This document shows positions 1,035 to 34,798 of a DNA stretch of 35,103 bases, piece after piece. A program made the position numbers and the translations under genes. The stretch covers positions 1-35,103 of the forward strand of contig CAJWEP010000007.1 of assembly GCA_913030945.1 (NCBI GenBank). The letters run 5' to 3'. The notes beneath the pieces are model-generated. The model saw only the letters and a list, made by a program, of their open reading frames with translations. It did no database searches and was not told the origin of the DNA. This DNA is from an uncultured Verrucomicrobiota bacterium (GTDB lineage Bacteria > Verrucomicrobiota > Verrucomicrobiia > Limisphaerales > UBA1096). Positions within the stretch are counted from its first letter, which is position 1; each line of letters begins with the position of its first letter.

Positions 1035-1055
1035 CGCTTGGCCAAGCCGCCCGCC

Positions 1056-1964
1056 ATGAGCCAACCGTCCATCGCGCTGATCTTCAATCCCGCCGCCCGT
1101 GGCGACAAGGCGCGGCGCTTTCGCGAGTCGCTTGGCCAACTGCTAAACGAGTGCACGCTGCTCGAGACGAGTGGCCCCGGCAGCGCGACCAGCCTCGCCG
1201 CGCAGGCGATTCGCGACGGCTACAAAACGATCGTCGCCTCCGGCGGCGACGGCACGGTCAACGAGGTCGTCAACGGCCTGACCCAGGCGCGCGACGGCCT
1301 TGGCCAAGCGCAGCTCGGCATCCTGCCGCTGGGCACGATGAACGTGTTCGCCCGCGAACTAGGCATCCCGCTCACGGCCAGGCGGGCCTGGGAGACGATT
1401 CTGCTTGGCCAGGCGCGGGCTGTTGATCTGCCCCTGGCCAAGGTGCAAACGGATGCCGGCCCAGCGGAGCGCTGCTTCGTCCAGATGGCCGGCGCCGGGC
1501 TGGACGGCGACGCGGTCGGCGGCGTGAGCATTGCGTTGAAGAAAAAAATCGGGCCGCTGGCCTACCTGTTCTCCACCCTCGCAGCACTCAAGGCCAAGCC
1601 GCCGAGGTTGACCGCCACTTGGGACGGCGGCTCGGTGCGTGGCGAGTGGATGTGCGTCGGCAACGGCCGGTTTTTCGGCGGGCCCGTCGTGCTGTTCCCG
1701 GATGCCAGACTCAGCGACGGCCGGCTCGAACTGTGCGTGTTTCCGCGCATCAATCCCGGCTCGGTGGCGCGCGGTGTCGCGTCGATGGCTCTTGGCCAAA
1801 TCGGCGACTGGCCCGGCGCGGAGCATCATCGCGTGAGTGAACTCACCGTCACTGGCCCGGTCGGGACCCGTGTCCAGGCCGATGGCGAGTTTATCGGCAC
1901 GCTGCCACTGACGATCACGCTGCAGCCGCGCGCGTTGAAGGTGCTCGTGCCGCCCGGCAAATGA
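1056..1964 (+). CDS. Diacylglycerol kinase-family lipid kinase (YegS/BmrU-like)
   Basis: IALIFNPAARGDKA, the GGDGTVNEVVNGL nucleotide-binding motif, and LGTMNVFARELGIP. The ORF track starts at TTG 1038 inside a palindrome; ATG 1056 is more likely. Confidence 0.9.
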   Translation: MSQPSIALIFNPAARGDKARRFRESLGQLLNECTLLETSGPGSATSLAAQAIRDGYKTIVASGGDGTVNEVVNGLTQARDGLGQAQLGILPLGTMNVFARELGIPLTARRAWETILLGQARAVDLPLAKVQTDAGPAERCFVQMAGAGLDGDAVGGVSIALKKKIGPLAYLFSTLAALKAKPPRLTATWDGGSVRGEWMCVGNGRFFGGPVVLFPDARLSDGRLELCVFPRINPGSVARGVASMALGQIGDWPGAEHHRVSELTVTGPVGTRVQADGEFIGTLPLTITLQPRALKVLVPPGK

Positions 1965-1971
1965 TTTCTTG

Positions 1972-1987
1972 CCGCTTGGCCAAGCGG
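1972..1987. repeat. 16-bp perfect palindrome CCGCTTGGCCAAGCGG (longest intact copy of the family)
   Basis: Intergenic; starts 7 nt after the stop codon of the lipid kinase gene. Confidence 0.95.
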
Positions 1988-2005
1988 AGGCAACGCTGAC
2001 GACGC

Positions 2006-3523
2006 ATGGGTTCGACGGGAAAAGTTTACCTCGTGGGCGCAGGGCCGGGAGATGCCGGGTTGCTCACGATGCGCGGTGCCGAGCTGCTGCGCCGGGCGGA
2101 CGTGGTGGTTTATGACGCGCTGGTCAATCGCGAGTTGCTGGCTCTCGCACCGGAGGCGGCCGAGGTCATCTTCGGCGGCAAACGCCCCCGCGACCGGGCC
2201 ATCCCCCAGGACGAGTTGAACCGGCTGCTCGCCGAGAAGTCTGGGGCTGGCAAAACGGTCGTGCGGCTCAAGGGCGGCGACCCGTACATTTTCGGCCGGG
2301 GCGGCGAGGAGGCGGCCGGGCTGCGCCGCGACGGCGTTCCGTTCGAGGTCGTGCCTGGCATCTCATCCATCATCGCCGCGCCGAGTTACGCCGGCATCCC
2401 GCTGACCCATCGGGAGCATTGCTCGAGCTTCACGGTCATCACCGGCCACGAAGATCCCGACAAGAAGGAGAGTGCGCTGGACTGGGAACGCATCGCCCGC
2501 GAGCCTGGCACAAAGGTTTTGCTGATGGGCGTCGAGCGCATTGGCAAAATCACTGCCGCTCTCGAGGCCAACGGCCTGCCCGCGGATACGCCGGCGGCCA
2601 TGATTCGCTGGGGCACGATGGGCCGGCAACAGACGATCACCGGTACGCTGGCCACCCTGGCCGACAAGGTGGCCAAGGCCGATTTCAAAGCGCCGGCGGT
2701 GACGGTCATTGGTGGCGTCTCAACGCTGCGGGACACGTTGAACTGGTTTGAGAACCGGCCGCTTTTTGGCCAGCGCGTGGTGGTCACCCGCACTCGCCGG
2801 GAGGCCGGCAAACTGTCAGGCCAGCTCAGGGATCTTGGCGCAGAGGTGCTCGAGATTCCCACCATCAGGATCGTGCCGCCAACCAGCAATGAGCCGATCA
2901 TCGAGGCCGTCACCGGCATAGGCAGCTATGACTGGATCATCTTCACCAGCGCCAACGGCGTGGAGCATTTCTTCGACTATTTTTTCAAGGCCTACCGCGA
3001 CGTGCGGGACCTCGGCAACATCCACTTTGCCGCTGTCGGGCCGGGCACCGCGAAAAAGCTTCGTGAGCTTCACCTCCACATCGACCTCATGCCGGAGGTG
3101 CACACCGCCGAGGCCACCGCCAAGGCGCTGCTTGACTATCAGAATGTCGAGAACACCTCGATGCTGCTCGCCCGCGCAGAGGAGGCGAACCCGGAACTGC
3201 CCCGGTTGCTGGAGGACAAGGGGGCGATCGTCGACGACATCGCGTTTTACAAGACCGTGCCCGAGACGGCGGATCGCAACGGCGCGGCGGAGGAATTTGA
3301 GGCGCACGGCGCGGACTGGATCACGTTCGCGAGCGGCTCGGCGGTGAGAAGCTTCGACGCGCGGTTCGGCTTGGCCAAGCGCTGCGAAGACCACCCAGGC
3401 CTCAAGCTCGCCTCGATCGGCCCCGAGACCACCAAGGCAATTAAGGCGCTTGGCCTTCAGCCCGCCGTCGAGGCCAAGGATCACACCATTGACGGTCTGG
3501 CCAACGCCCTGCTCAAACAGTGA
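2006..3523 (+). CDS. cobA-hemD: Fused uroporphyrinogen-III C-methyltransferase / uroporphyrinogen-III synthase
   Basis: N-terminal [22 protein letters not shown]...[18 protein letters not shown] (SUMT); C-terminal HemD-like domain ([30 protein letters not shown]...[10 protein letters not shown]). Confidence 0.95.
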
Positions 3524-3525
3524 GC

Positions 3526-3548
3526 GGTGACGTTGGCCTAGCGTCACC
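3526..3548. terminator. Possible terminator hairpin between convergent cobA-hemD and DUF721 genes
   Basis: GGTGACG-TTGGCCTAG-CGTCACC: 7-bp perfect stem with a 9-nt loop, 3 nt after the cobA-hemD stop. A T-run lies 15 nt further on, inside the opposing gene. Confidence 0.45.
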
Positions 3549-3957: not shown

Positions 3958-4067
3958 GCAGCGAAGCAGGGCCCATCAAACGGCTCGTTTTGGCCGGAGT
4001 CAATCCGGGAATTATTCAGGCGATTCCGCTTGCAAAAGAGGAAGGGCTTTCCGACGTTCTTTTGGTT

Positions 4068-4614: not shown

Positions 4615-5814
4615 ATGACCTTCCGTTTTATTTTGACGCTTGTACTCGGCTTGGGGCTTGGCCAGGCGACGGCAGGCAACCACTCGCTCCGGGTCGATGC
4701 CGGGCAGCATGATCGCAGCGATACGCCGGTCTCGTTTCAATTGCCCAAGTCCGGCCAAGCACAATGGCGGCTCACCGGCCCCGATGGCCAAGCGGTGGCC
4801 ATCCAGGCGGATGACCGCGGCTTGGCCACGTTCATCGTCGGCAAGCTCGCCGCCTTTAAGACGGCCGTTTACCGGCTCGCCCCCGCAGCCAAGCCGACCC
4901 ACGTCGACGCCGTCCACTTGGCCAAGCGGAATGGTCAACTGCATTTCTCGATCGGTGACAGGGCGGTGCTGCATTATCAGGCCGAGAAAAGCGAGTTGCC
5001 GCGTGACGATCTCGAGCCGATCTACCGCCGGGGCGGCTACATTCATCCAGTCGTGACGCCGGGCGGCACGGTCATCACCGACGACTACCCGCACAACCAC
5101 AAGCATCACCACGGCATTTGGTTCCCGTGGACGAACACAATATTCGAGGGCCGCAAGCCGGACTTTTGGAATATGGGCAAGGGCACCGGCACCGTGGAGT
5201 TCACCGGCCTGCACGGCCAATGGAGCGGCCCGGTGCACGCCGGATTCTCGAGCTCCCACCAGTTCGTCGACCTCATTGCGAAACCCAGAAAAATCGCCCT
5301 CACGGAGACGTGGCACGTGCAGGTGTACGCCACTGGGCAAGCGTATTACCTCTTTGAACTGGAGTCGGTGCAGCGTTGCGCTGGTGGGAGCAAGATCCGG
5401 TTTCCGCAATACCGCTACGGCGGCTTGGGCTTCCGTGGCCATGGCGATTGGGACGGCAAAGAGAACTGCTTTTACCTCACGGCCAACGGCGAGAGCGACC
5501 GCATCAAGGGCCACACCACCCGCGCCCGATGGTGCCATGTCGGGGGGCGAACCGGTGGCAAGTGGGGCGGCATCGGCGTGCTGTGCCACCCGGATAATTT
5601 CCGTTTCCCGCAGCCGATGCGGATCCACCCGAGCGAGCCGTTTTTCAACTTCGCCCCAGCCCAGGCCGGCCACTGGGAAATCAAGCCAGACGAGGATTAC
5701 GTGTCGCGCTACCGCTTCGTCGTGAGCGACGGCCGCGCAGACGCCGAACTACTCGAGCGCCTCTGGCGTGACTTCGCTTTCCCGCCGCGAGTGGAAATCT
5801 ACGCAGACGAGTAA
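4615..5814 (+). CDS. Exported PmoA-type (DUF6807-like) protein
   Basis: Signal peptide ending LGLGQATAG; HPVVTPGGTVITDDYPHNHKHHHGIWFPWTNTIFEGRKPDFWNMGKGTG, typical of the PmoA/DUF6807 family. Confidence 0.85.
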   Translation: MTFRFILTLVLGLGLGQATAGNHSLRVDAGQHDRSDTPVSFQLPKSGQAQWRLTGPDGQAVAIQADDRGLATFIVGKLAAFKTAVYRLAPAAKPTHVDAVHLAKRNGQLHFSIGDRAVLHYQAEKSELPRDDLEPIYRRGGYIHPVVTPGGTVITDDYPHNHKHHHGIWFPWTNTIFEGRKPDFWNMGKGTGTVEFTGLHGQWSGPVHAGFSSSHQFVDLIAKPRKIALTETWHVQVYATGQAYYLFELESVQRCAGGSKIRFPQYRYGGLGFRGHGDWDGKENCFYLTANGESDRIKGHTTRARWCHVGGRTGGKWGGIGVLCHPDNFRFPQPMRIHPSEPFFNFAPAQAGHWEIKPDEDYVSRYRFVVSDGRADAELLERLWRDFAFPPRVEIYADE

Positions 5815-5820
5815 TACCGC

Positions 5821-6795
5821 TCACTTCAAAAATGTCACCGCTCCGATTGCGGCTGCGATGAGCAACAGAAGGAGAACCGCTGACGGCTTGGTCAAGCCGG
5901 TGCGGACGAGGTGGTGGGAGAAATGGTTGTTGTCGCCGACCCACACCGCTTGGCCAAGCCGGCAGCGGATGAGGATCACCGAGACCAGGTCGGCGAGCGG
6001 CACGGCGAGCACGAGCAGCGGCGCAATGACGAGCCACTTGTGAGGGCTGGCTGCGGAGTAAAAGTCGGGGAGGATCGCCAGCAGGGCGAGCAGGAAGCCG
6101 ACGACGTGGCTGCCGCCGTCGCCGAGGAATGCACCGCTGCGCGGGAAGTTGAACGGCAGGAAACCGGCCACCGCGCCGGTGAACAAAAACGCCAGCGAAG
6201 CGACGAGGTATTGCCCTTCCAGCCCGGCGTGCCACGCGAAAAACCAGCCGCCGATCAGCCCCAGCCCGGCGCACAGGCCGTTCATGTTGTCCTGAAAATT
6301 GACAGCGTTGGTGACGGTCAAAATCCACAGCACGGTGACAGCGTAACTGAAGGCCGGGCTCTCGACGAAGACCGTCACGCGGATGCCGCTGGTGGCGACG
6401 GCGAGCGCAATCAGCATCTGGCCGGTAAACTTCCACTTGGCCGACAGGTTGCGCTGGTCGTCGATGATGCCAAGTGCCAGCATGGCTAGCGCTCCGCCGA
6501 GGATGGCGGCGAGTTGCCATCCGCGCTTGGCCAAGCCGTGGGCGACAACGTGGGCGAACGATTCCGGCAAAGGGCCAAGCCAAGCCCACGCGGAGGCGGC
6601 CAGGATTGGCGCGGCCAGACCGGTGACCACGGCCAGGCCGCCCGCCAACGGCACCGGATGGTCGTGAATTTTCCGGTGGCCCGGCGCGTCCACCAGCCCG
6701 ACATGTTCGCACCAGCGTCTCCACAGCGGCAGCGAGGCAGCGGAAATCACCGCGCCCCCGACGAGCGCCAACAGGTAGAGTCCGACCGGAAACAT
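5821..6795 (-). CDS. MraY/WecA-family undecaprenyl-phosphate glycosyl-1-phosphate transferase
   Basis: Multi-TM protein with HRKIHDHPVPLAGGLAV, DDQRNLSAKWKFTGQ, NAVNFQDNMNGLCAGLG and LGDGGSHVVGFLLA. Confidence 0.92.
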   Translation of the reverse strand: MFPVGLYLLALVGGAVISAASLPLWRRWCEHVGLVDAPGHRKIHDHPVPLAGGLAVVTGLAAPILAASAWAWLGPLPESFAHVVAHGLAKRGWQLAAILGGALAMLALGIIDDQRNLSAKWKFTGQMLIALAVATSGIRVTVFVESPAFSYAVTVLWILTVTNAVNFQDNMNGLCAGLGLIGGWFFAWHAGLEGQYLVASLAFLFTGAVAGFLPFNFPRSGAFLGDGGSHVVGFLLALLAILPDFYSAASPHKWLVIAPLLVLAVPLADLVSVILIRCRLGQAVWVGDNNHFSHHLVRTGLTKPSAVLLLLLIAAAIGAVTFLK

Positions 6796-6903: not shown

Positions 6904-8487
6904 ATGCAGAGGATCAAGCGAGGCCAATCGTTGTGCGTCATCGGTCTGTCGGCGGTCGGCTTGTTGCTGCCGGCCGAGGCCGCGGATGACGCGAAGTTCA
7001 TTGCCCGGGGGAAGGAGCTCTTTCAGTCGAAAATTTGTTTCACCTGCCACCAGGTGGACGAAAACGTGCCGGCTCCGGCCGGCATCGCCATGAAAGCACC
7101 GAAGTTCATGGGCGGTTTCTGGGGCAAAAAACGCGTCGTGACCCTCGGCTACGGCGGCCCGGAGGCCACGGTGACGTTTGACGAGGCGTACTTCACCGAG
7201 TCGATCCTCAAGCCGATGGACAAGGTGTCCAAGGAGGCCGCCGCGCCGATGCCGCCGCCGCCCGCTGTCAACGACGGGGAGATGAAGGCGCTGATCGCCT
7301 ACGTCCGCTCGCTCAGTGAGGGCGGCAGCGCGGAGGATCCCGACGGCCTCATCGCAAAGGGTAAAATCAACAATTTCACCTTCGCCGCCTACAAGGGCAG
7401 TTGGGACCGGCTCCCAGACTTCTCCAAGCTCAAGCCGTTCAAGACCGGCAAGGCTAAGAGCGGCACGGCCGACCCCGGCCTCGCCGGCGTGGGCGAAAAC
7501 TTCGGCGTGGTGTTCGAGGGCGATATCGAGATTGCCAAAAAGGGCGACTACTCGTTCAACCTCGGCTCCGACGACGGCACGCGCCTCCACATCAACGGCA
7601 GGCTGGTGGTGGACAACGACGGGGTGCACGGCATGCGGGCCAAGAAAGGCAGCATCGCCCTTGAGCCGGGAGCCGCCAGGCTGAGGCTGGAGTACTTCGA
7701 AAGGGGTGGCGAGGAGCGGCTCGCGCTCGACATGTCTGGCCCGGGCATCAAGCGTCTGCAGTTGGCCAAACAGACCATCAAGCCGGCGCGCCGGGGGCCG
7801 GCTTTCCCGACCGGTAACCCGATCACCGTCACCGACGAAGCGCGCATCTATCGCAATTTCATCGAGGGTGGCAGCCCGCGCGGCATCGGCGTTGGCTACC
7901 CGGAGAAGGTGAACCTCTGCTTCGACGCCAACACGATGCAGATCGCGATGCTGTGGCACGGTGCGTTCATGGACGCGGCGAGGCACTGGAACGGCCGTGG
8001 TCAAGGGTTTCAGCGACCGTCCGGCCACTACCTGATCCGCCTCAATCGCGATCAGCCGTTCGCGCAGCTTGACAGCCATGATGCCGCTTGGCCAAAGGCC
8101 GAGGGCCGCGACACTCGTGCCAAGGGCCTGAAGTTCCGTGGCTACTTCCTTCTCCCAGAGAATCGGCGCCCGATCTTCGGATACAAGATCGGGGACGATT
8201 TGCAGGTGGCCGACTATGCCGAGCCGAACGCCGGCGCGCTGCCGTCGATCACCCGACGGCTCCGCATACGCGGGAACGGCAAGGTGTGGTACCTCGCCGC
8301 CGCCGCCGCCTCGATCACCGAGGAAGACGGCGGTTACAACATAGGAGGCACCTTGCTACGCGTCAGTTTCCCGGAACTTGAGGCCGAGCCGGTGATCCGC
8401 GAGAGCGGCGGCCGCAAGGAATTGCTCATCAAGCTCAATGTCGAAGGCCAAGCGACCCTCAAACAGCATTACGAGTGGAACCTGTAA
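6904..8487 (+). CDS. Exported c-type cytochrome with PA14-like domain
   Basis: Signal peptide ending AEAADD, heme-binding CFTCH, and PA14-like YSFNLGSDDGTRLHINGRLVVDNDGVHG. The upstream part of the 6514 ORF overlaps the opposite-strand transferase and is spurious. Confidence 0.8.
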   Translation: MQRIKRGQSLCVIGLSAVGLLLPAEAADDAKFIARGKELFQSKICFTCHQVDENVPAPAGIAMKAPKFMGGFWGKKRVVTLGYGGPEATVTFDEAYFTESILKPMDKVSKEAAAPMPPPPAVNDGEMKALIAYVRSLSEGGSAEDPDGLIAKGKINNFTFAAYKGSWDRLPDFSKLKPFKTGKAKSGTADPGLAGVGENFGVVFEGDIEIAKKGDYSFNLGSDDGTRLHINGRLVVDNDGVHGMRAKKGSIALEPGAARLRLEYFERGGEERLALDMSGPGIKRLQLAKQTIKPARRGPAFPTGNPITVTDEARIYRNFIEGGSPRGIGVGYPEKVNLCFDANTMQIAMLWHGAFMDAARHWNGRGQGFQRPSGHYLIRLNRDQPFAQLDSHDAAWPKAEGRDTRAKGLKFRGYFLLPENRRPIFGYKIGDDLQVADYAEPNAGALPSITRRLRIRGNGKVWYLAAAAASITEEDGGYNIGGTLLRVSFPELEAEPVIRESGGRKELLIKLNVEGQATLKQHYEWNL

Positions 8488-8513: not shown

Positions 8514-9998
8514 ATGATGAATCAAGTGACACGCTTAGCACTGCTGGCCGGCCTCGCGCTTGGCCAAGCGGCCGCCCTCCGCGCTGCCGACCCGGTCGAG
8601 TCCGACTATTACCAGATCGATGCCATCCCGATGCCGGACGGTGTCGTGATGGAGACCAGCGGCATCGAGATGATGCCGGACGGCAAGTTGGCCATCTGTA
8701 GCCGTCGCGGCGACGTTTACGTCCTGTCCGACCCGTTCGGTGCGCCGGACAAAATCAGATGGACCCTCTACGCCGAGGGGCTGCACGAGCCGCTGAACCT
8801 CGCCTTCAGCGACGGCTGGCTCTACTGCACCCAGCGCGGCGAGCTGACCCGCATGAAGGACGTTAGCGGTGACGACCGCGCCGACATTTTCGAGACGGTC
8901 AACGACGGCTGGGGCATCACCGGCGACTACCACGAATACGCCTTCGGCACCCGGCCCGATCCCAACGGCGACATGTGGATCGTCCTCTGCCTCACCGGCT
9001 CGTTTTCCAGCCAGATCGACTACCGCGGCTGGTGTGTCCGTGTTACCAAGGACGGCGAACTCATCCCAACCGCCAGCGGCATCCGCTCGCCGGGCGGCAT
9101 CGGCCTGAACCACTTGGGCGAAGCCTTCTTTGCCGACAACCAGGGCCCCTGGAACGGCTCCAGCTCGCTCAAGCCGCTCTCGCATGGCTCGTTCCAAGGC
9201 CATCCCGGGGGCTTCCGCTGGTACGACCTCGCGGCCGCGAAGACGTCGATGGGTAAGCGCCCCACCGAGCCCAAGACCAACAGCCGCTGGGTGGCCGAGC
9301 GGCCCAAGATTCCTGAGTTGGTGCCCTCGGCCATCGTGTTCCCGCACGGCATCCTGGGCAACTCCACCGCCGGATTCGCCTACGACAGCAACGGCAAATT
9401 CGGTCCGTTCAAGAACCAGTTGCTCGTCTGCGACCAAACCTTCTCAGTGGTCAACCGCGCCTTTCTGGAAAAAGTGAACGGCGTCTACCAGGGTGCGGCG
9501 TTCTCGTTTTTGAAGGGCTTCGGCTCTGGGAACATCAGTGCCTACATGCACCCCAACGGCACGCTGTTTGTCGGCGGTACCGACCGCGGCTGGGGCGCTC
9601 GTGGCGGCAGACGATTCGCACTCGACCGCGTCACGTGGAAGGGCGGCGTGCCGTTCGAGATGCACGAGATGCGCGCCAAGCCGGACGGTTTCGAGTTGAC
9701 CTTCACGCACGAGGTGGAGGCCGTAAGCGCCGGCAATCTGGCTTCCTACAGCATGAGCGCTTACACCTACATTTACCGCTCCGATTACGGCAGTCCGGTC
9801 GTTGACAAAATGACCCCGAAGGTCGTGGGCGTCGAAGTCACCGGCCCGAAAACCGTGCGAGTGACCGTGGACAAGCTCATCCATGGGCATGTTCACGAGT
9901 TGCACGCCAAGGGAGTCCGTTCGGCCAAGGGCCTGCCGATCCTACACCCGGTCGGCTACTACACGCTCAACGAAATCCCCCCCGGCGAACTCAACTAG
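8514..9998 (+). CDS. Exported beta-propeller / sorbosone-dehydrogenase-like protein
   Basis: AAGGAGAT Shine-Dalgarno upstream of ATG 8514; signal peptide LALLAGLALGQAAALRAADP; repeated blade-like motifs (GIEMMPDGKLAICSRRGDVYVL, GEAFFADNQGPWNG). Family assignment is approximate. Confidence 0.7.
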   Translation: MMNQVTRLALLAGLALGQAAALRAADPVESDYYQIDAIPMPDGVVMETSGIEMMPDGKLAICSRRGDVYVLSDPFGAPDKIRWTLYAEGLHEPLNLAFSDGWLYCTQRGELTRMKDVSGDDRADIFETVNDGWGITGDYHEYAFGTRPDPNGDMWIVLCLTGSFSSQIDYRGWCVRVTKDGELIPTASGIRSPGGIGLNHLGEAFFADNQGPWNGSSSLKPLSHGSFQGHPGGFRWYDLAAAKTSMGKRPTEPKTNSRWVAERPKIPELVPSAIVFPHGILGNSTAGFAYDSNGKFGPFKNQLLVCDQTFSVVNRAFLEKVNGVYQGAAFSFLKGFGSGNISAYMHPNGTLFVGGTDRGWGARGGRRFALDRVTWKGGVPFEMHEMRAKPDGFELTFTHEVEAVSAGNLASYSMSAYTYIYRSDYGSPVVDKMTPKVVGVEVTGPKTVRVTVDKLIHGHVHELHAKGVRSAKGLPILHPVGYYTLNEIPPGELN

Positions 9999-10054
9999 CC
10001 ACTTGGCCAAGCGGGTAGAAGACATTCTGCGTCAGTCGTGGGACGGAGAGGCCT

Positions 10055-10948: not shown

Positions 10949-11102
10949 AACGGAAGTAGTACTTGGCCAAGCTTGCCTTGAGGCGTGTAGGCAGAAAAGC
11001 CATCAATTGATGGAAAATACCCGTTGCAATCGGTGCGGGGTGTGATAAGTTTCCGCGCCCGCATTTCGGCGGAGCGACTCCAAATCGCCTGTTTTTAGAA
11101 AA

Positions 11103-22401: not shown

Positions 22402-22435
22402 AGCTTGGCCAAGTTGACACGGCGCTTGGCCAAGC
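22402..22435. repeat. Paired palindromes with 21-bp centre spacing
   Basis: AGCTTGGCCAAG TTGACACGGC GCTTGGCCAAGC: cores at 22405-22412 and 22426-22433 in the gap after the DUF1552 stop. Confidence 0.95.
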
Positions 22436-24743: not shown

Positions 24744-25676
24744 ATGCCTCGAAAACTCAGTTCCATCGCTCCCGACTGGTGGGATTACACCACGCTTGAG
24801 GACAACCTCATCCGCGACGCAGCGGCGCTCACGCCAGTCGACCTCCTGCAATTGTCGCGCCCCGGTTTCCGCGTCGAGATGTACGACACGCTAGAAGATT
24901 TCTACTTGGCCGAGGCGCTCGAGTACATCCATGCTTGGAGGCAAGCCACCGCCGACAACCCGGTCGGAGTCTGCGGCCCGATCGGCCCGACCGAGCAACT
25001 GCCACTCGTCGCCCGCTTGGTCAACGAGCTTGGCCAAGCGCTGAAGCACGCACATTTCTGGGGCATGGACGAATGGATCGGCGACGATGGCCGCGAAGTG
25101 CCAACCGACCACCCGCTATCATTCGAGCGCGCCGACCGAGAACTGTGCTTTGAGCGTATCGCGTCCGATTTGGTGATGCCGGAGGAAAACCTGCACTTCC
25201 CCACTGCCGATACCGGGGCGTTCCGCGCAACTTGGGACGGAGTGCGCTGCGCCGTGATGCAGGGCGGCCAGGGCGACATCAAGCACTGGGCTTTTAACGA
25301 TCCGCTGCGCCGTGAGGGCGCTCACTCCGACGTACCTCCGACGCCGGAGGAATACCGCAAGCTTGCCACGCGCGTTGTCGAGTTGCACCCGATCACGCTG
25401 GCGCAAAACGCCCGCACCTCCGGCGGCGGCAACATTACCATGGTGCCACCGCAAGCGGTCACCGTTGGCCCGGTGGAAACGTGGCAGGCAGAGAAGGTCA
25501 GTATCTGGCACGCCGGCACGCATGATAATCCGTTTGGGCAGCGGCTCACCGCGCTGATGATTTCCAAGGGCATCGCCGACTCCGCAGTGCCGATGTCGCT
25601 GCTCGCCGACCACCCGAACGTCCAGTTCAACTACTACCGGGGCGGCCTCGGCACCTGCGACGTCGAGATGCACTAA
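24744..25676 (+). CDS. Glucosamine-6-phosphate isomerase/deaminase-like protein (NagB fold, divergent)
   Basis: [42 protein letters not shown]...; KHWAFNDP in place of DGHIAFNEP; starts 4 nt after the sulfatase stop codon. Confidence 0.75.
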
Positions 25677-25704: not shown

Positions 25705-26826
25705 TTACCCCAGACATTGGCCAAGGGCGTCGAGGAAGCGTTCGACGTTGGCTGTGGTGGCGTTGTGGCCCATGAGGCCGACGCGCCAGATTTTGCCCTT
25801 CATCGGGCCAAGGCCGGGGCCGACCTCGATGCCGAAGTCGCTGAGCAGGCGACCTCGAACGCCTGCTTCGTGCGCTCCATCCGGTACGCCGATGGCGTTA
25901 AGTTGCCAAAGCTGATGCCCCTCCTGTGACGTGATCGAAAGGCCCAGCTTGGCCAAGCCGGCCTTTAGCGACTCGTGTGCCTGACGATGCCGGTTCCAGC
26001 GTGTCTCGAGCCCTTCCTCCAGGACCAGGCGCAACGCCTCGTGCAGCGCGTAGTTCATCGAGATCGGAGCAGTGTGATGGTACACGCGCTCCGAGCCCCA
26101 GTAGCTAGCCAGGAAATTCACGTCGAGATACCAGCTCTGCACCTTGGTTTTGCGGTTGGTGAGGACGTTCATCGCGCGGGGGCTGAACGAAACCGGTGCC
26201 AGACCCGGAGGGCAGCTCAGGCATTTCTGTGAACCACTGTAAACGGCATCGACCTGCCAGTCATCGATGGCCACCGGGCAGCCACCGAGTGATGTCACGG
26301 TATCAAGCACGAACAGCGCACCGGCGTCATGAGCCAGGCGCGATATTTCCTCGACCGGTGTAAGGGAGCCGGTGGAAGTCTCGGCATGAACAATTGCCAC
26401 AAGCTTGGGTTTACAACCCTCGAGTGCGGCGGCGATGGCCGATGGCTCGATGATCGTGCCCCACTCGGCCTCGACCTTGGTGACCGTGGCGCCGCAGCGC
26501 TCGGCGACATCGCACATGCGCGTGCCGAACACGCCGTTGACGCCGATGAGCACCTCGTCGCCCGGCTCGAGTAAATTAACAAAACAGGCCTCCATCCCCG
26601 CGCTGCCAGTGGCACTGACCGGGAACGTCATTTCATTTTCGGTTTGGAAAACGTGTCGCAGCATCGACTTGATCTCCTCCATCATGTCGATGAATGTCGG
26701 ATCAAGGTGGCCTACGAGAGTTTGCTGCATTGCTTGGAGCACGGAGGGGGCGGCGTTGCTGGGGCCGGGTCCGAGCAGCAGTCGATCAGGAGGTGAGTAG
26801 GCGGCGGGAATGCTGGAGTTGCTCAT
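25705..26826 (-). CDS. Alanine-glyoxylate / serine-pyruvate-type class V aminotransferase
   Basis: [73 protein letters not shown]. Confidence 0.95.
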
Positions 26827-26872: not shown

Positions 26873-28369
26873 TCATGCAATGAGGTCTTGGATGACGTGG
26901 CCGTGGACGTCGGTCAGGCGAAAGTCGAGACCCTGGTACCGATAGGTCAACCGTTTGTGGTCGATGCCCAACAGGTGAAGGATCGTGGCGTTCAGGTCGT
27001 GGATATGCATGGTGCCGGGCGTCCACTTGCCCTTGGTCGGCCTGATCATGTTGCCGTCGGCGTCGGTAATGTTGTAGGAGTAGTCGTCCGTCTGGCCATA
27101 GGTGATGCCGGGCTTGATGCCGCCGCCGGCCATCCATGTGGTGAAGCAGCGTGGATGATGGTCTCGCCCGTAGTTCGTCTTTGTCAGCTTGCCCTGGCAG
27201 TAGGCGGTGCGGCCGAATTCGCCGCCCCAGACTACCAAGGTCTCGTCGAGCATGCCGCGTTGCCTTAGGTCGGCGATGAGCGCCGCGCAGCCCTGGTCGA
27301 TGTCCTTGCACTGGGACTCGTGCTCGCGTGGAAGACTGCCGTGGGCGTCCCAGCCACGGTGGAAAATCTGGATGTTGCGCACACCGCGTTCGGCCAGGCG
27401 CCGGGCGTTCAGGCAACAGGCGGCAAAAGAACCCGGATTTTTGGCTTCCTCACCGTAGAGCTTAAATGTCGAGTCACTTTCGCCCGAGAGATCCATCAAC
27501 TCCGGCACTGAGGTTTGCATGCGGTAAGCCATCTCGTGCTGCTTGATGCGGGCAAGAATCTCCGGATCGGCAAACTCTTTGAAATGTTCCTGATTGATGG
27601 CCGTCAACGCATCAAGTTGTGCGCGGCGATCTTTGCCAGTCACTCCGGCCGGGTTCTTTAAATACAGAACAGGGTCGCCCTGGCTGCGCAGGAGCACACC
27701 CTGGTGCTCTGATGGCATGAAGCCGGTTCCCCAAAGCCGGTTGAACAGACTTTGCTCGGCGAATTTGGAGCGCGCATGCATGACAACATAGCTCGGCAGG
27801 TTTTCATTTACTTTACCCAAACCGTAGCTGAGCCAGGCGCCGAGGCTGGGACGACCAGGAACCTGGCTGCCGGTCTGGATGTATGTGATGGCCGGGTCGT
27901 GGTTGATGGCCTCGGTGAAGGTGCTATAGATAACAGCCAATTCCTTCGCCACCTTGGCCGTGTGGGACAGCAGTTCACTGACCCAGACGCCGCGGTCGTT
28001 GTTTTCGTGCTTGGTGAAAGTATATTTACTTGGACAAACTGGCAGCGTCTTTTGACCCGAGGTCATGCCGGTAATGCGTTGCCCGTCACGGACGTGTTCA
28101 GGCAAATTCTGACCAAACATCTCGCGCATTTTCGGTTTGTAATCCCAGAGATCGTGATGGCTTGGGCCACCGCTCATGAAAAGATAGATCACCCGCTTGG
28201 CCTTGGGTGCGAAGTGAGTGCCTTGCGCTTGGCCTGCGGTGTTGGCGAGCAGGTTCGGGCCAAGCGCGTTGGCCAAGGCGGCAGTACCAAGGCCAAGCGC
28301 AGCGCGGCCAAACAACTGCCGGCGCGTCATCATGAGTTCGGATTCGCGAAGTGGATTCATGTTGTCCAT
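26873..28369 (-). CDS. Tat-exported DUF1501 protein
   Basis: MMTRRQLFGRAALGLGTAALANALGP; VIYLFMSGGPSHHDLWDYKPKM; FHRGWDAHGSLPREHESQCKDIDQG; GGEFGRT. Confidence 0.95.
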   Translation of the reverse strand: MDNMNPLRESELMMTRRQLFGRAALGLGTAALANALGPNLLANTAGQAQGTHFAPKAKRVIYLFMSGGPSHHDLWDYKPKMREMFGQNLPEHVRDGQRITGMTSGQKTLPVCPSKYTFTKHENNDRGVWVSELLSHTAKVAKELAVIYSTFTEAINHDPAITYIQTGSQVPGRPSLGAWLSYGLGKVNENLPSYVVMHARSKFAEQSLFNRLWGTGFMPSEHQGVLLRSQGDPVLYLKNPAGVTGKDRRAQLDALTAINQEHFKEFADPEILARIKQHEMAYRMQTSVPELMDLSGESDSTFKLYGEEAKNPGSFAACCLNARRLAERGVRNIQIFHRGWDAHGSLPREHESQCKDIDQGCAALIADLRQRGMLDETLVVWGGEFGRTAYCQGKLTKTNYGRDHHPRCFTTWMAGGGIKPGITYGQTDDYSYNITDADGNMIRPTKGKWTPGTMHIHDLNATILHLLGIDHKRLTYRYQGLDFRLTDVHGHVIQDLIA

Positions 28370-28386: not shown

Positions 28387-30819
28387 TCAAAACAGCATCA
28401 AAGCCAAGTCGCTGGCCAGGGCTGTGGCTGCCATCTGGGTCCATGCGGCATGGTCTGTTATGTTAAGTGATTGATCCCTTGGCACTTCGCCTGTGCCAAG
28501 CAGCGACAGCGCTTCTTTCTCGGAGTCGGAATAACGCTCGCGCATCGTCTTAAGCAATTTGGCGCAGGCGTTGCGTTCCGTTTTGCTTGGTTCCCGGCAT
28601 GTCAAGAGCGTGAAGAGCAGGTTGAGTCGCTCATTGTCAGTGGTGCGTTCCTTGAGCAGGCGTTCGGCGAGCATGCGTGCCATCTCGACGCGTTGGACTT
28701 CATTCAGCAGGCCAAGCGACTGGAGCGGTGTGTTGGTGCGCGAACGCCTCACACAGCTCGACTCGCGGCTCGGTGCGTCGAAGAGCGTCATCATCGGATG
28801 CGGGCTGGTGCGCTTCCAGTAGACGTAAAGGCTGCGGCGAAAAACCATCCGCCCCTTATCCTGCTTGTATTGTTTCGTGTTACTGGCCGGATGGGCAAGT
28901 TCTTTCCACAAATTGGGGGGTTGATACGGTTTCACGCCTTCACCGCCCATATGCGGATCAAGCAGGTTGCTGGCCCAAAGAGCAATGTCGCGCAGCACCT
29001 CTGCGTCGAGTCGATAGCGAGGTCCGCGGCTCCAAAGCATGTTCTCAGGATCGTCCGTGCCGTCGCGCAGGGCGGAGCTTTGGCGGAAGGTCTTGCTGGT
29101 GACCATGAGTCGTAACATATGCTTGAGGTCCCAGTTGCGACTCTGCATTTCGACGGCGAGCCAATCGAGCAGCATGGGATGGGTGGGTTGTTGGCCCTGC
29201 AGGCCGAAATCCTCCGGCGTGCGAACCAGGCCCGCGCCGAAGACGCGTTGCCAGATGCGGTTAACCAGAACGCGCGCGACAACCGGGTGCTTGCTGTCGG
29301 TAAGCCACTTGGCCAAGCTGAGCCGGTTGCGCGGCGCGCCTTTCGGTATCGAACCCATTGCACTGAGAACATCGGGCTGCAACGTTTTGCCGGTGGGCAG
29401 GTTGTATTCACCGCGCTCGAGAAGTTTGGTTTCACGTGGCTTGCCCAATTCCTTGGCGACAAGTGTGGTGGTGAAATTGGCTTCAGCATCAGCAATCTTC
29501 TTGGCAATATCGGTCGCTTCCTTTTGCAATTTTTCAAGGCGCTGGTCCGGCTTGGCCAAGGCTAGAAAACGCTCTTCCCTGCCACCCATTTCCCATTTTT
29601 TGTACAGTTCCGACTTAAGTTTTTCTGCTTGGTTAACCAAATCAATTCGCTTCGCCTTTAAGGCTCCCCACCTTTCCCATGCGCTCTGGTCGGCAGGTAC
29701 CTTTATCACCGGCGCATAGTCGTACTTGTTGCCATCAAGGGGCTTCTCGGCTGTGTTGTTGAAGAACGCAAGCAGTCGGTAGTACTCGGTCTGGCTGATT
29801 GGATCGTATTTATGCGAGTGACAACGCGCACAGATCATGGTCATGCCGAGGAACACTGTGCCAAGTGTCTCGGTGCGGTCGAAGTTGTTCTTTGCCTGAA
29901 ACTCCGCCGGGATCACGCCGCCTTCCGCGGTGGTGGGGTTCATCCTTACGTAACCGGTGGCAACAAGTTGCTCCATCGTCGGGTTGGGCAAAAGGTCGCC
30001 GGCCAACTGCCATTCAATGAACTTATCGAGCGGCAGGTTGTTGTTCAGCGCCCGGACCACCCAGTCGCGGTAGGGATAGATACCCCGGCGATTGTCAAGG
30101 TGCAGTCCGTGAGTGTCTCCATAGCGAACAGCGTCGAGCCAGTAACGCGCCTGGTGCTCGCCGTAGCGCGGATCGGCAAGTAACTGCTCAACCAACCGCT
30201 CGTAGGCGTTGGCGCGTTTGTCCGTCATGTAAGATTCCAACAGTTCCGGCTGGGGAGGAAGACCGGTCAACATAAGTGCCAGCCGTCGCGCCAGGGTTGG
30301 CTTGTCCGCCTCGGATGCAAAGGCGATACCCTTTTCCGCAAGGCTGGCCTGCACAAATGCATCGATTGGGTGGCCCGGACTGGGCGGTGTCACCTTGACT
30401 GGCGGCACGAATGCCCAATGCTTGGAATAACCGCCACCCTGTAGTACCCAGCGCTCGATTAGCTTCCGCTCCTCCGCCGTGAGTTGTTTCTGGGCATCCT
30501 CGGGCGGCATGGGATCGTCTGCGTCGTTAATGCGAGTGATGATTTCGCTCTTGGCCAGGTTGGTGGGATCGATAGCCTTGTAACCGCCCAAATCACTAGT
30601 GGCACCCTCAAACGAGTCGAGGCGCAGTGGGTCTTTTTTATTTGAGTCCGGGCCGTGGCAAACAAAACATTTGTTGGAAAGGAGAGGGAGGATTTCCCGG
30701 GCGAAATCAACGGTCTTCTCCGCCGCGGAAATGGCCGAGTGCGCAAGCGCGAGTGCGAACGCCGAGGGAATCAAGGTTTGAGTGCGGTTCACGCGGTATA
30801 AATAGCCTCGAATGCCCAT
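28387..30819 (-). CDS. PSD1/DUF1549-DUF1553 planctomycetal cytochrome c-domain protein
   Basis: CFVCHGPDSNKKDPLRLDSF; YWLDAVRYGDTHGLHLDNRRGIYPYRDWVV; NRIWQRVFGAGLVRTPEDFG; RESSCVRRSRTNTPLQSLGLLN. Confidence 0.95.
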   Translation of the reverse strand: MGIRGYLYRVNRTQTLIPSAFALALAHSAISAAEKTVDFAREILPLLSNKCFVCHGPDSNKKDPLRLDSFEGATSDLGGYKAIDPTNLAKSEIITRINDADDPMPPEDAQKQLTAEERKLIERWVLQGGGYSKHWAFVPPVKVTPPSPGHPIDAFVQASLAEKGIAFASEADKPTLARRLALMLTGLPPQPELLESYMTDKRANAYERLVEQLLADPRYGEHQARYWLDAVRYGDTHGLHLDNRRGIYPYRDWVVRALNNNLPLDKFIEWQLAGDLLPNPTMEQLVATGYVRMNPTTAEGGVIPAEFQAKNNFDRTETLGTVFLGMTMICARCHSHKYDPISQTEYYRLLAFFNNTAEKPLDGNKYDYAPVIKVPADQSAWERWGALKAKRIDLVNQAEKLKSELYKKWEMGGREERFLALAKPDQRLEKLQKEATDIAKKIADAEANFTTTLVAKELGKPRETKLLERGEYNLPTGKTLQPDVLSAMGSIPKGAPRNRLSLAKWLTDSKHPVVARVLVNRIWQRVFGAGLVRTPEDFGLQGQQPTHPMLLDWLAVEMQSRNWDLKHMLRLMVTSKTFRQSSALRDGTDDPENMLWSRGPRYRLDAEVLRDIALWASNLLDPHMGGEGVKPYQPPNLWKELAHPASNTKQYKQDKGRMVFRRSLYVYWKRTSPHPMMTLFDAPSRESSCVRRSRTNTPLQSLGLLNEVQRVEMARMLAERLLKERTTDNERLNLLFTLLTCREPSKTERNACAKLLKTMRERYSDSEKEALSLLGTGEVPRDQSLNITDHAAWTQMAATALASDLALMLF

Positions 30820-30846: not shown

Positions 30847-31896
30847 TTACTTCAAACCGGCTATTTCGGCCTTGGCCAAATAGATGGAGGTCTTTCCCGA
30901 GTGACTGCTGTAGTAACTGATCCAGAGGAGCCCGTTATGCCAAACCAAGCCCGCGTAGCTGGAATCGCCGCCGCTCGGTAGCTTGGCTGACGGGGTGTAC
31001 TTGGCGGTCTGGAAGTTGACCCAGCCCAGCTCGGTCCACTGCGAACCCCAGTCGCGATGGTTTTCATCCGCATAGCGCCGGACACAGGCAAGGACGCGAC
31101 CGTCCGGCAACTGAATCATGGACGGGCCGCCCAGCGTGATGTTGAGCCGGCGCCACTCCCAGTCGGTGTAGGGCGGTTCCGCTTGGCCAAGCAGGGCGTA
31201 GCCGCCGGTTTTCGATTGCGCATTGTCACGGCGCAGAAGCATATGAGCGCGGCCCTCGGCATCGAAGAGCATCGCGTGTTCGTTGCTGCGATCGCCCGGC
31301 GGCCGGAGGTGATCAACATGAAGCGTGTACTGATTGCCGTCGGTCGTGCGGTAAAATCGCGTCGCGTCGCGGTTACCCCACCGGTAGCCAAGCGCATAGC
31401 CGGTATTGCCGAGCCACGTGGTTTGCCAGAGCCAGTAGCCCTTGTCGGCAATCTGCGTGGCGGCCGACCAGTCGGTTCCGTTTTTGGAACGATACGTCAC
31501 GGAGGTGTTGTTGCGAATGTCGGCGCGGTCGTTGTCCACGCGATACTCACAGGAATTGAGCAGCAACTCGCCGCCTGGCGTGACGGACAACTTGGCGTCC
31601 CGCAAATCAACTCCCTGATTCTGCAGCAGCGCCACTGATTTCCATGCCTTGCCATCGCTGGAGGCGATCACGCGAATCTTCCCGTAATCGCCACCACCCG
31701 CATGGCCGCGACCCTCCCGAAAGGCGCAATACCACCTTCCCTTGAACCGTTGAAGGTCGGTAAACGCGTTGTGCGGGGCTGCATCCCAGATTTTCTGGGC
31801 CTCTACAATCTTGATGCCGTGATTTTCGTCAGCGACAAGGTGTCCGGCGAGAAGGAGCATCAGAACGACCGTGCAGTGTCGAAGGTTGTTTTTCAT
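30847..31896 (-). CDS. Exported sialidase / BNR-like beta-propeller protein
   Basis: Signal MKNNLRHCTVVLMLLLAGHLVAD; FTDLQRFKGRWYCAFREGRGHAGGGDYGKIRVIASSDGKAWKSVALL; repeated sialidase-like blades. Confidence 0.85.
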   Translation of the reverse strand: MKNNLRHCTVVLMLLLAGHLVADENHGIKIVEAQKIWDAAPHNAFTDLQRFKGRWYCAFREGRGHAGGGDYGKIRVIASSDGKAWKSVALLQNQGVDLRDAKLSVTPGGELLLNSCEYRVDNDRADIRNNTSVTYRSKNGTDWSAATQIADKGYWLWQTTWLGNTGYALGYRWGNRDATRFYRTTDGNQYTLHVDHLRPPGDRSNEHAMLFDAEGRAHMLLRRDNAQSKTGGYALLGQAEPPYTDWEWRRLNITLGGPSMIQLPDGRVLACVRRYADENHRDWGSQWTELGWVNFQTAKYTPSAKLPSGGDSSYAGLVWHNGLLWISYYSSHSGKTSIYLAKAEIAGLK

Positions 31897-31960
31897 GAAA
31901 GTGATGTTCGTGGGCGGGGACTGTTGCAGCGATGATTCATCCGGGCAAGGTCACTTGCCG

Positions 31961-33493
31961 TCAATCCAACTTCCTGGTGGTCAGGTCGAGTTGTCTCGAA
32001 ACGAAGACAGTCGGTTCGTCTATGGTGACGCCTGTTTTTTTCGGGAACCAATCGGCAGTCATCTCGGTGTACTTGAGGGCATTGGTGTTGGCAGGCGTCG
32101 GGCCGGGCGTGTCCAGTACGAATGCCGCCTTCATCAGCCCGGCATAGGCCTGTTGGTAGTTCATTGGGTTTTTCGCCACGACGAATTTGCAGGCCGCGAT
32201 GTCCAGCTCGAGCAGGTCAAACTGTTCCGTCATCCAGTCGTAAGTGGCGTTGCTGCTGACGACGATTTGAATCGGGCCAATCTCAACCACGGCGGTTGGC
32301 CCCATGTAACCCGAGCGGCCATCCCAGATGCCACCAGCATAGGTGAATGCCCCGTCGCTGAGCCGCGAAACAATGCCGTCCACAAAAACAGGTTCGCCCC
32401 ACTTGGGATCAAGCCGGTGGCCAAGCTGCAGTCGAATCGCTTGGCCAATGCCCGCTGCGTCCGCCCGTCGCGCCGCCTCGGGATCGACCACGGGAACAAT
32501 CGCCGATTGGTCGGAGGCTTCCGCGAGCAGCGCCTTGAGCGTGTGTACGCTGTCACCGGTGGCGCCGCCACCGCAGCAGTCGGCCGTCTCGACCAGTAGC
32601 ACCGGCCCGCCTTCGATTTGCAATCCGCGCCGAACAGCTTCGCTTGGCTCGAGCGTTTTCGGCTGGAGTTCGTGGCGTTTCTCCCAGTACCGCTTGGCCA
32701 AGCGCTTGGCCACGGCGACGGCATCCGTTTCGCTTTCGTTGGCGACCACCAAAACGCCGCCGCCCATGTCCGGCAGGTTCAAATAGGGATGCACCAAAAT
32801 GGGGCTGATCGAGTAAAGCGTCCCGCTGCCCTCAAGGCGCTTGGCCTCTTGCATGACATTGGCAAACGGCCCCGGCGGCTGCGTCTGGCCGTGAATGGCG
32901 CTGGTGATGACCGGCACCTTGGCCATGGCCATGACCGGCTTCAGTCGGGCGGCCAAAATATCAACGATCGCTTGGGCGCCGCGCTCGCCGGTCTCGAAGG
33001 CATCGACGTGCGGATAGGTTTCCCACGCCAGCAATGCATCGGTGTTGACCAACAACTCGGGCGTGATGTGCGCGTGCAGGTCGAGTGTGCCGACGATCGG
33101 CACCGTGTCGCCCACCCGTTCGCGAACCACACGCGCCAAGTCGCCCTCCATGTCGGGCGCGTTGACTGCCGTCCCGGCGCCATGCAGGCAAAGGAGAATG
33201 CCATCGAGTTCGCCCGCGTTGTCGAGCCATTCCAGTAGCTCGTTTTTCAGAGCGTCGTAAACCTCCGCCCGGACGGCTCCGCTGGGACTGGCGCTGGCGT
33301 ACAACAGCGGAACCGGCTCACAGTCGTTCGCCCGGAGCACGGACGTCATGCCGCCGAGCACGCCGGTGTTCCGGGCAAGCAGTTCGCCGCTGCAAAGGTA
33401 CTCCGATCGCTCGAACGCCGCACGATCCGCGAGTTGCTCCGTGAAGTGGTTGCTCTCGATGAAAATGCCGCCTACGCCAATCCGGGCTGACAT
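31961..33493 (-). CDS. M81-family metallopeptidase (MlrC/microcystinase-C-like)
   Basis: RIGVGGIFIESNHFTE; ILLCLHGAGTAVNAPDMEGDLARVVRERVG; GTLDLHAHITPELL; ADCCGGGATGDSVHTLKALLA. Confidence 0.93.
   Translation of the reverse strand: MSARIGVGGIFIESNHFTEQLADRAAFERSEYLCSGELLARNTGVLGGMTSVLRANDCEPVPLLYASASPSGAVRAEVYDALKNELLEWLDNAGELDGILLCLHGAGTAVNAPDMEGDLARVVRERVGDTVPIVGTLDLHAHITPELLVNTDALLAWETYPHVDAFETGERGAQAIVDILAARLKPVMAMAKVPVITSAIHGQTQPPGPFANVMQEAKRLEGSGTLYSISPILVHPYLNLPDMGGGVLVVANESETDAVAVAKRLAKRYWEKRHELQPKTLEPSEAVRRGLQIEGGPVLLVETADCCGGGATGDSVHTLKALLAEASDQSAIVPVVDPEAARRADAAGIGQAIRLQLGHRLDPKWGEPVFVDGIVSRLSDGAFTYAGGIWDGRSGYMGPTAVVEIGPIQIVVSSNATYDWMTEQFDLLELDIAACKFVVAKNPMNYQQAYAGLMKAAFVLDTPGPTPANTNALKYTEMTADWFPKKTGVTIDEPTVFVSRQLDLTTRKLD
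32692..32713. repeat. Tandem 12-bp palindrome unit (VAKRLAK on minus strand) inside the M81 gene
   Basis: GCTTGGCCAAGCGCTTGGCCAC: cores at 32694 and 32706, 12 bp apart. Confidence 0.9.
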
Positions 33494-33517
33494 CAGTCCT
33501 TCGCCGGTTGCGGTGGG

Positions 33518-34798
33518 TTAGTCCCGCCAGTAGGTGGACTCGGGGCCGACCGAGTAACGGACATTCATATGCGGTGTCTCGATGGCGATCTGTCCACGGT
33601 GCAGCGACTCGACACCGGCCAGCGTCATGCCCGAGGTCAGTAGCGTGCGCTCGGCCGGGTAGGGCACTTTGCCGGTGATCACCGCATCTTCGATGTGGCG
33701 GCAGAGCGGGTGAAAAAAGTCCGCCGTGGTCGAGCCGTGGCCCGGCATTGGCAGATACATTTGCGTGGAGACGATCTCGCCGGTGTCGGCCCGAATCCCG
33801 GCGTAGTTGAAGTCGCGGATGCCGGTCAGGAGCATCGTTGTGCGAAAGCCGTCCAAGTGGTCGATGAAATAGGCGGTCGAGTTCGGAAACGTTTTCCGTG
33901 CCCAGTCGAACGTGATCTTGCCGGTGTAATAGCCGCCCTCGACCGGCAGGTTGTGACTCCTGGTATACGCCGAGACAATGAGCCGCCGCGTGTCGGCATA
34001 CTTCGGCTTGGCCAAGTGCGCCCACATTTTCTCGCCGCGCAGGGCAAGCACCTGCCGGATGCCCACCTCGCCGCCGCGCCGCCGCTCGGACATGCACTGC
34101 GCCGTCTCCAGCGCGTGAATGTCGTAACTATCCACTCCGCCGTAGGCCACGCAGACACTCTCCTTCAACGGCACGTTGTGCGGCATGTCGATCGATGGTA
34201 TGCGTCGGGTGACCGGCAGCGATGAGCCGGCAAAGAACGGGAAATTGAGCCGTTTGGCGTCGTCGACCATCTCCCTGCAGTGAGCCCAGGTTGTGGAAAG
34301 GTGCTTGTCGTTGAACACCGGCACGCCGCGGCCGCTCTTCTCAAAAACCTTCACACATCTCTTGAACCACTCATAACGTGGATATAGTTTCTGGCCCTTC
34401 TCATTGTTCGGATAATTCCCGTGTTCGGCGATGATCACCACGCCATCGACCGCGAGCTTTCCTGTGCCCAGCGTCAGCGCCTGCTCGATGCTGGGGTAGA
34501 GTTTCAACCCGTACCGCTTTACACGGTCACGCCCAAGGTCGCCACTCTCAGGAAACTGATCGATATAGACCGAGGCAATATCGGTCCGAGGCTCCTGCCA
34601 TGCACCCCGCCAGCCGTAGCCCAGAGCCAGCCGGTCGAGAAAATGCTGCGCGTGCGAGTGCTGACGCACCTCCGTGCCGAGAAAAGCGATCCGCTTGCGC
34701 TTGGCTCCTCCTTGGCCAAGTACAGCCCCCGGAACCGCTGCCGTGACTCCAGCCAGCAGGCCGCAGTTCCCCAAAAAAGAACGTCGAGTCGTCTTCAT
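33518..34798 (-). CDS. Tat-exported conserved PVC protein (oxidoreductase-like, function unassigned)
   Basis: MKTTRRSFLGNCGLLAGVTAAVPGAVLGQGGAKRKRIAFLGTEVRQHSHAQHFLDRLALGYGW...; twin-arginine motif; start at 34798 rather than 34918. Confidence 0.8.
   Translation of the reverse strand: MKTTRRSFLGNCGLLAGVTAAVPGAVLGQGGAKRKRIAFLGTEVRQHSHAQHFLDRLALGYGWRGAWQEPRTDIASVYIDQFPESGDLGRDRVKRYGLKLYPSIEQALTLGTGKLAVDGVVIIAEHGNYPNNEKGQKLYPRYEWFKRCVKVFEKSGRGVPVFNDKHLSTTWAHCREMVDDAKRLNFPFFAGSSLPVTRRIPSIDMPHNVPLKESVCVAYGGVDSYDIHALETAQCMSERRRGGEVGIRQVLALRGEKMWAHLAKPKYADTRRLIVSAYTRSHNLPVEGGYYTGKITFDWARKTFPNSTAYFIDHLDGFRTTMLLTGIRDFNYAGIRADTGEIVSTQMYLPMPGHGSTTADFFHPLCRHIEDAVITGKVPYPAERTLLTSGMTLAGVESLHRGQIAIETPHMNVRYSVGPESTYWRD

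Follow-up and report, generated by a model that had tools for sequence, protein, structure and literature searches.

We describe a 16-bp palindrome, SCGCTTGGCCAAGCGS, that is iterated throughout the genome of an uncultured marine Verrucomicrobiota bacterium and is maintained there by a sequence-specific directional force. The most likely mechanism, to which we assign a probability of about 0.35, is that of an uptake or recombination signal. The motif is a new variant of highly iterated palindromes (HIPs) and is restricted to one genus; a text search of the literature returned no paper describing its octamer core, TTGGCCAA, as such a repeat. The original prediction, made for a single stretch of this genome, claimed a HIP1-like palindrome in what is likely a phylum other than cyanobacteria, which is correct for this member of a PVC phylum; its interpretation as a whole is partly supported.

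The window, i.e., the whole analysed stretch of 35,103 nucleotides, contains 35 exact copies of TTGGCCAA spanning positions 1038-34719; dinucleotide shuffles gave 0.70 +/- 0.75 and never as many as 35. The 12-mer form GCTTGGCCAAGC is present in 14 exact copies compared to 0 expected, so that the predicted numbers (35 cores and at least a dozen 12-mers) agree with the exact counts. None of the sites is assigned to a strand. The 12-mer form occupies 1036..1047, 3369..3380, 5948..5959, 6525..6536, 8558..8569, 12580..12591, 18193..18204, 22497..22508, 25028..25039, 25947..25958, 31181..31192 and 32692..32703, as well as the intergenic positions 1974..1985 and 22424..22435. Copies listed as cores are located at 1132..1139, 1300..1307, 1792..1799, 4918..4925, 7762..7769, 8088..8095, 11494..11501, 12476..12483, 17733..17740, 18300..18307, 25717..25724, 28269..28276, 29309..29316, 29552..29559, 30872..30879, 32441..32448, 34008..34015 and 34712..34719, and, in intergenic DNA, at 10003..10010, 10963..10970 and 22405..22412. 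The copy at 1132..1139 is also exact in most close relatives, and those at 1300..1307 and 3369..3380 are also exact in relatives at ~76% identity.

The original prediction proposed genome-wide counts, a Markov model, codon-preserving controls and a comparison with other 8-mer palindromes, and all of these bear it out. The motif is not confined to the window: the 3.41-Mb assembly contains 2,415 copies of TTGGCCAA (707 per Mb, ~1 per 1,400 bases), compared to 115 copies of the reversed control AACCGGTT. For 435 kb of DNA from the same genome, 315 copies were observed versus 28 under a third-order Markov model that was fitted on the same 435 kb, and this expectation drops to 3.3 when the motif halves are masked; for CTTGGCCAAG, the corresponding numbers are 223 and 3.1. 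Synonymous-codon shuffles yielded 36.4 copies (maximum 44) versus 248 observed within called genes. Among 8-mer palindromes, TTGGCCAA alone is strongly enriched. Homology had already been dismissed as an explanation, rightly, and codon usage and protein composition are also ruled out by the synonymous and codon-order shuffles and by the density of TTGGCCAA, which is higher in intergenic than in coding DNA. An assembly artefact or contamination is ruled out because the motif recurs in MAGs of independent studies.

The full extent of the motif was defined on intergenic sites, which are free of codon constraint. The enriched 8-mer and 12-mer forms that had been reported are real; the full length is 16 bp, not 8 or 12. 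In intergenic DNA the 16-bp consensus is sharp, its flanks are symmetric and the palindrome is perfect, no shared flank was seen outside the 16 bp, and the SCGCTTGGCCAAGCGS profile is identical between two clades that are ~25% diverged. The palindromy and the abrupt 8+8-bp limits are suggestive of binding by a symmetric (dimeric) protein, broadly in keeping with the DNA-binding-protein site that had been listed among three possible roles. One such protein would be a putative abundant dimeric nucleoid-associated or chromosome-segregation protein, with the sites kept by selection for chromosome organisation. The symmetric 16-bp footprint with graded information, the presence of sites within genes and in every type of intergenic gap, and the lack of need for any strand or transcript dependence are all consistent with it. 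We nevertheless regard it as unlikely, given that the sites are spaced almost at random, with no regularity found (CV 0.97), that positions turn over freely, that site loss is neutral or faster in some lineages, and that the motif is also present on a phage contig (L131). A role at the RNA level or as a terminator is not favoured, because divergent promoter gaps (0.96 sites per kb) are as rich as convergent gaps (0.72 per kb).

Within the genus, 18 of 21 genomes carry TTGGCCAA at 0.34-1.08 per kb, and three low-GC members have only ~0.1 per kb. No comparable density was found among the other sampled genomes of the phylum, and no comparable palindromes in ~35 other families of the order, each represented by one stretch of at most 20 kb. 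No replacement HIP was found in the low-GC members, the position of which is not fixed by a genus tree rooted with a distant outgroup. The zero-order observed/expected ratio (O/E) of the motif is ~22-101 across motif-rich genomes and rises with GC (Spearman 0.74 for 21 genomes and 0.58 for the 18 motif-rich ones), as expected if both follow recombination.

Using ortholog alignments, we found that sites at homologous positions in relatives differ by point substitution and not by insertion, and that positions turn over freely. Gaps account for only 10 of 320 aligned cells (3%) at the sites of this genome in close relatives. The third proposed role, that of a small self-spreading palindrome, is therefore contradicted: although the motif is palindromic and highly repeated, as a REP-like insertion would be, close relatives show substitutions at these sites rather than the insertions with conserved unit boundaries expected of a REP/MITE element, and no flank is shared beyond the 16 bp, which brings the probability of such an element close to zero. 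In 37 kb of alignments, site retention was 0.586 compared to 0.325 for words of the same composition (confidence interval of the difference 0.18-0.33). Coding and intergenic DNA are alike in this respect; intergenic retention is 41/65 (63%) compared to 85/355 (24%) for control words. Retention about twice that of matched words indicates that a directional force maintains the sites, and its strength varies among lineages, in some of which sites are lost at the neutral rate or faster. The average loss is 0.48 (0.38-0.61) of neutral; by our calculation, constant drive or selection yielding the ~33-fold enrichment over controls predicts a loss near 0.1 of neutral. Thus, either the force varies in time or the creation of sites is also biased.

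Biased creation is the essence of another explanation, in which a hypothetical mismatch-repair or very-short-patch-like activity resolves near matches in favour of the motif, and the palindrome is a functionless epiphenomenon of context-dependent mutation or repair. Compared with control words, one-off forms have an exact counterpart in another genome 12-20 times more often, an estimate of gain that is confounded by decayed sites. This 16-fold excess, compared to losses that are merely halved, speaks for a repair bias, and so do the same behaviour in coding and intergenic DNA, the presence of the motif on a phage contig and the association of its O/E with GC. However, the frequent one-off states include losses by T to C as well as by G to A changes, and their restoration takes both GC-raising and AT-raising changes, so that a single base-change bias is insufficient. 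Taken together, we consider this bias an unlikely cause as well.

The leading idea on HIPs is a link to DNA methyltransferases, and HIP1 itself has, to our knowledge, lacked an explanation since 1995. A HIP1-type association with an orphan methyltransferase, through methyl-directed mismatch repair or as a restriction-modification target, would be in line with GGCC and TGGCCA lying inside the core, and all cyanobacterial HIPs have a putative matching methyltransferase (PMC4390886). We searched the 21 genus genomes with profiles of five Pfam families that cover most DNA methyltransferases. PF01555, PF02086 and PF07669 were absent in all 21, PF00145 was found in only one, and PF02384 yielded three marginal partial matches, none of them in the genome described here; the same profiles match in 4-13 of 14 control genomes. 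The incompleteness of single MAGs is no explanation for absences shared by 21 genomes. The methyltransferase/mismatch-repair model of HIP1, and with it the methyltransferase or restriction target that had been proposed, is therefore not supported for this motif, and we consider it very improbable.

An uptake or recombination signal would operate without methylation. Point mutation would create sites wherever a near match exists, a symmetric (dimeric) protein would recognise the 16-mer, and site-carrying DNA would be preferentially taken up or recombined, so that site-bearing alleles could spread in a manner resembling DNA uptake sequences, and sites would be fixed and kept in genes and intergenic DNA alike. 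Enrichment is graded by mismatch load (151x for the perfect 12-mer, 27x for one mismatch and 3-6x for two), which matches the gradient of uptake sequences under molecular drive (PMC1939737). Full-length comEC is present in this genome, where it lies next to ffh. In the genus, comEC was found in 9 of 21 genomes, all motif-rich, whereas neither the three genomes with few motifs nor G020, which is intermediate, yielded it. With MAGs that are 61-94% complete, this difference (9/17 versus 0/4) does not reach significance (Fisher p=0.10). Site loss was slower in lineages in which comEC was found (121/166 versus 66/118 sites kept; Mann-Whitney p=0.035), a comparison that pools non-independent lineages and few sites; G014 has comEC and yet loses sites fast. 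The better retention with comEC, the GC correlation and the one phage contig weakly favour an uptake or recombination mechanism.

Viral contigs were sought with 14-15-mers, the matches of which arise mostly by chance. L291 and L301 (six copies each) were dropped, as host-type flanks are mostly missing, and L131 alone, with 8 copies versus 0.2-0.6 expected, was retained as a weak lead. It should be noted that this contig fits a force on all cellular DNA at least as well as it fits uptake. It would also suit a palindromic Chi-like signal that shields self DNA from exonuclease or guides double-strand-break repair, given that phages gain by self-mimicry, that a palindrome works in both directions, and that copy number and density are within the Chi range. 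However, Chi sites are oriented and non-palindromic, and 16 bp is long for Chi, making this reading distinctly improbable. Returning to uptake or recombination, a more specific version, in which a putative dimeric protein conserved across the genus imposes a methylation-independent palindromic signal on chromosome and phage DNA, with decay upon loss of the machinery, is possible but doubtful.

Among known systems, Chi shares with the motif short length and genome-wide over-representation and serves as a recombination signal; it is asymmetric and oriented with replication, whereas here the 16-bp palindrome is randomly spaced. The uptake sequences of Neisseriaceae and Pasteurellaceae (PMC1939737) share a density of ~1 per kb, graded enrichment, gain by point mutation rather than insertion and higher density in intergenic DNA. 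In contrast, known uptake sequences are non-palindromic (PMC1939737), and the present motif is a perfect palindrome in an uncultured host, with comEC found in no more than half of the MAGs that are rich in it. The closest parallels are HIP1 and the alternate HIPs (PMC4390886), with a palindromic octamer core at ~0.3-1 per kb in coding and non-coding DNA and loss in some relatives. Members of the HIP class are short palindromic oligomers that exceed compositional expectation by far and reach hundreds to thousands of copies per Mb; TTGGCCAA belongs to this class, and its density and enrichment are comparable to those of HIP1, as predicted (zero-order O/E 55-228 in cyanobacteria; Elhai 2015, PMC4390886). 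It is not HIP1 proper, which is GCGATCGC of cyanobacteria: sequence and phylum differ, the extended palindrome is longer (16 bp) and constant across the genus, and no matching methyltransferase was found among the five families in 21 genomes. Thus, a HIP of comparable strength exists in a distant phylum, in a genus with almost no DNA methyltransferases, a case not covered by the leading explanation for palindromes of this type. This genus separates what HIPs require from features that only happen to occur alongside them in cyanobacteria. Its sister species range naturally from ~0.1 to 1.1 per kb, which allows motif-rich and motif-poor genomes to be compared gene by gene. If true, a methylation-independent uptake or recombination signal would be a first mechanistic handle on the purpose of HIPs.

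The window contains exactly 35 copies of the 8-mer palindromic core TTGGCCAA, compared with 0.7 expected from dinucleotide shuffles, and exactly 14 copies of the 12-mer form GCTTGGCCAAGC, compared with 0 in the shuffles, in agreement with the original prediction of 35 cores and at least a dozen 12-mers with an expectation of about zero. The whole 3.41-Mb assembly, of which the window is contig 7, includes 2,415 TTGGCCAA versus 115 copies of the reversed word; thus, the enrichment is not confined to the window. Within 435 kb of own DNA, we observed 315 8-mer, 223 10-mer and 121 12-mer palindromes, whereas a 3rd-order Markov model trained on that DNA predicted 28, 3.1 and 0.44, respectively. Called genes contained 248 sites, compared with 36 once synonymous codons were shuffled within genes, so the excess persisted in both the Markov and the codon-shuffled controls that had been proposed for it. 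Sites fall into the three codon phases as 131, 102 and 13, and are denser in intergenic DNA (1.0/kb, 69 in about 67 kb) than in genes (0.67/kb). The listed ORF at 1038-1964 has a TTG start inside a motif copy, and its true start may be elsewhere.

At sites outside genes, C predominates at -1 (0.86) and -3 (0.66) and G at -2 (0.72), with S at -4; these positions lead into TTGGCCAA, which is followed by the mirrored flank. Composition is at background level at -5 and beyond, which makes the motif a sharply bounded 16-bp palindrome. The same profile emerged from 266 sites of close relatives and from 110 sites of the G003/G016/G010/G004/G012 clade, which is about 25% diverged, and a weak residue persists in the low-GC genomes. 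Enrichment drops smoothly as mismatches increase. A footprint this symmetric, and conserved genus-wide, suggests recognition by a dimeric protein that is itself conserved. A second dyad, CCAAGCGCTTGG, with the same half-sites in the opposite arrangement, occurs 32 times versus 0.28 expected (435 kb), about half of the copies not touching a full TTGGCCAA. Other palindromes are depleted in the same 435 kb (for example GGGCCC, 41 versus 130, and TGGCGCCA, 7 versus 37), despite the lack of recognisable restriction-modification methyltransferases.

The CobA-HemD protein has named matches in MAGs of marine Verrucomicrobiota, from sites such as the Arabian Sea, Fram Strait and ALOHA and including one labelled Pedosphaera, and the organism is accordingly assigned to that group. 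The comparison with related genomes, another proposed check, revealed 0.34-1.08 TTGGCCAA per kb in 18 of the 21 genomes of the genus, and about 0.1 per kb in the motif-poor G001, G005 and G019. Counts of CTTGGCCAAG are 427-3,274 per motif-rich genome versus 41-57 per motif-poor genome (reversed control, 1-19); elsewhere in the phylum, the highest count in any of 387 genomes was 76. In about 35 further families of the order, each represented by one stretch of at most 20 kb, no palindrome of any sequence was comparable. The GC content is 41-44% in the three motif-poor genomes versus 58-65% in the motif-rich ones, G020 being intermediate in both GC (51%) and density (0.34/kb), and the observed/expected ratio correlates with GC across the genus (Spearman 0.74). 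The within-genus GC range, about 41% to 65%, tracks motif density (L058-L069 versus L006-L025).

To follow individual sites, 37 kb (window 1-17000 and L012) were aligned with orthologs. In close relatives, 53% of cells at own-genome site positions were exact, 27% had a single mismatch (one-off) and 3% contained gaps, against 28% exact for control words of the same composition. Pooled over 12 genomes, retention was 0.586 for sites versus 0.325 for controls, the site loss rate being 0.48 of the control (CI 0.38-0.61), and one-off words had an exact counterpart in another genome 16 times (12-20) as often as controls did. Intergenic retention was 41/65 for sites versus 85/355 for controls; within genes, the protein-changing share of differences was the same for both. 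By lineage, with small numbers, the loss factor was 0.22 in G008, 0.43 in this genome, and reached or exceeded about 1 in G015, G014, G017 and G002. Therefore, the motif originates by substitution, and its sites are held by a force of varying strength. A small self-spreading palindrome, as had been suggested, does not fit relatives whose positions differ by substitution, with so few gaps. G008, which has the highest motif density and the strongest site retention, carries the sole C5-cytosine methyltransferase found in the genus (G008:C53:508-1560, L005).

The suggestion that the motif is a methyltransferase or restriction target fared poorly. DNA methyltransferase families, searched as five Pfam families, are almost wholly lacking genus-wide: PF01555, PF02086 and PF07669 were found in none of the 21 genomes, PF00145 in G008 only, and PF02384 as three marginal partial hits outside this genome, whereas the same searches gave matches in 4-13 of 14 control genomes. 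Methylation is a most improbable explanation on this evidence. A methyltransferase of another family, one lost from the bins, or a non-methyl modification such as phosphorothioation, which can target GGCC in Streptomyces, might nevertheless be present. It is very probable that the phenomenon is real, confined to the genus and maintained, and that no recognisable methyltransferase accompanies it.

DNA uptake sequences under molecular drive have a graded mismatch spectrum, a point-mutational origin and an intergenic excess (PMC1939737), all of which the motif shares. This genome encodes ComEC (806 aa, adjoining ffh); in MAGs that are 61-94% complete, comEC was found in nine motif-rich genomes, and not in the three motif-poor ones or G020. 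Site retention was better where comEC was found (121/166 versus 66/118; Mann-Whitney over lineages, p=0.035, the lineages not being independent). Given this incompleteness and non-independence, the comEC-motif links are weak. The phage contig L131 (IMGVR_UViG_3300032087_002358), with terminase, DnaB and exonuclease genes, contains 8 TTGGCCAA in 13.7 kb versus 0.2-0.6 expected, with host-type flanks; relatives with an 89% identical terminase and a GC content of 44-46% contain 1-2. Should L131 have its host in this clade, every DNA molecule in the cell would be subject to the force, a situation better accounted for by recombination/repair or Chi-like protection than by uptake alone. Weighing the likeness to uptake sequences, the comEC links and L131, we tentatively prefer an uptake or recombination signal, at a probability of roughly one in three; a nucleoid protein site and biased repair rank after it, both being doubtful, and Chi-like protection is unlikely.

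In cyanobacteria, Elhai detected a candidate matching methyltransferase wherever a genome had a highly over-represented sequence, and put forward a mismatch-repair ratchet directed by methyl-C (PMC4390886). For the five families searched, the genus lacks a recognisable matching methyltransferase, on which that model depends. An accompanying methyltransferase is a feature of the described cyanobacterial HIPs, and one in which the Verrucomicrobiota motif departs from them. The motif is not a member of HIP1, to which it had been likened; by its behaviour, it is a new variant of the HIP class.
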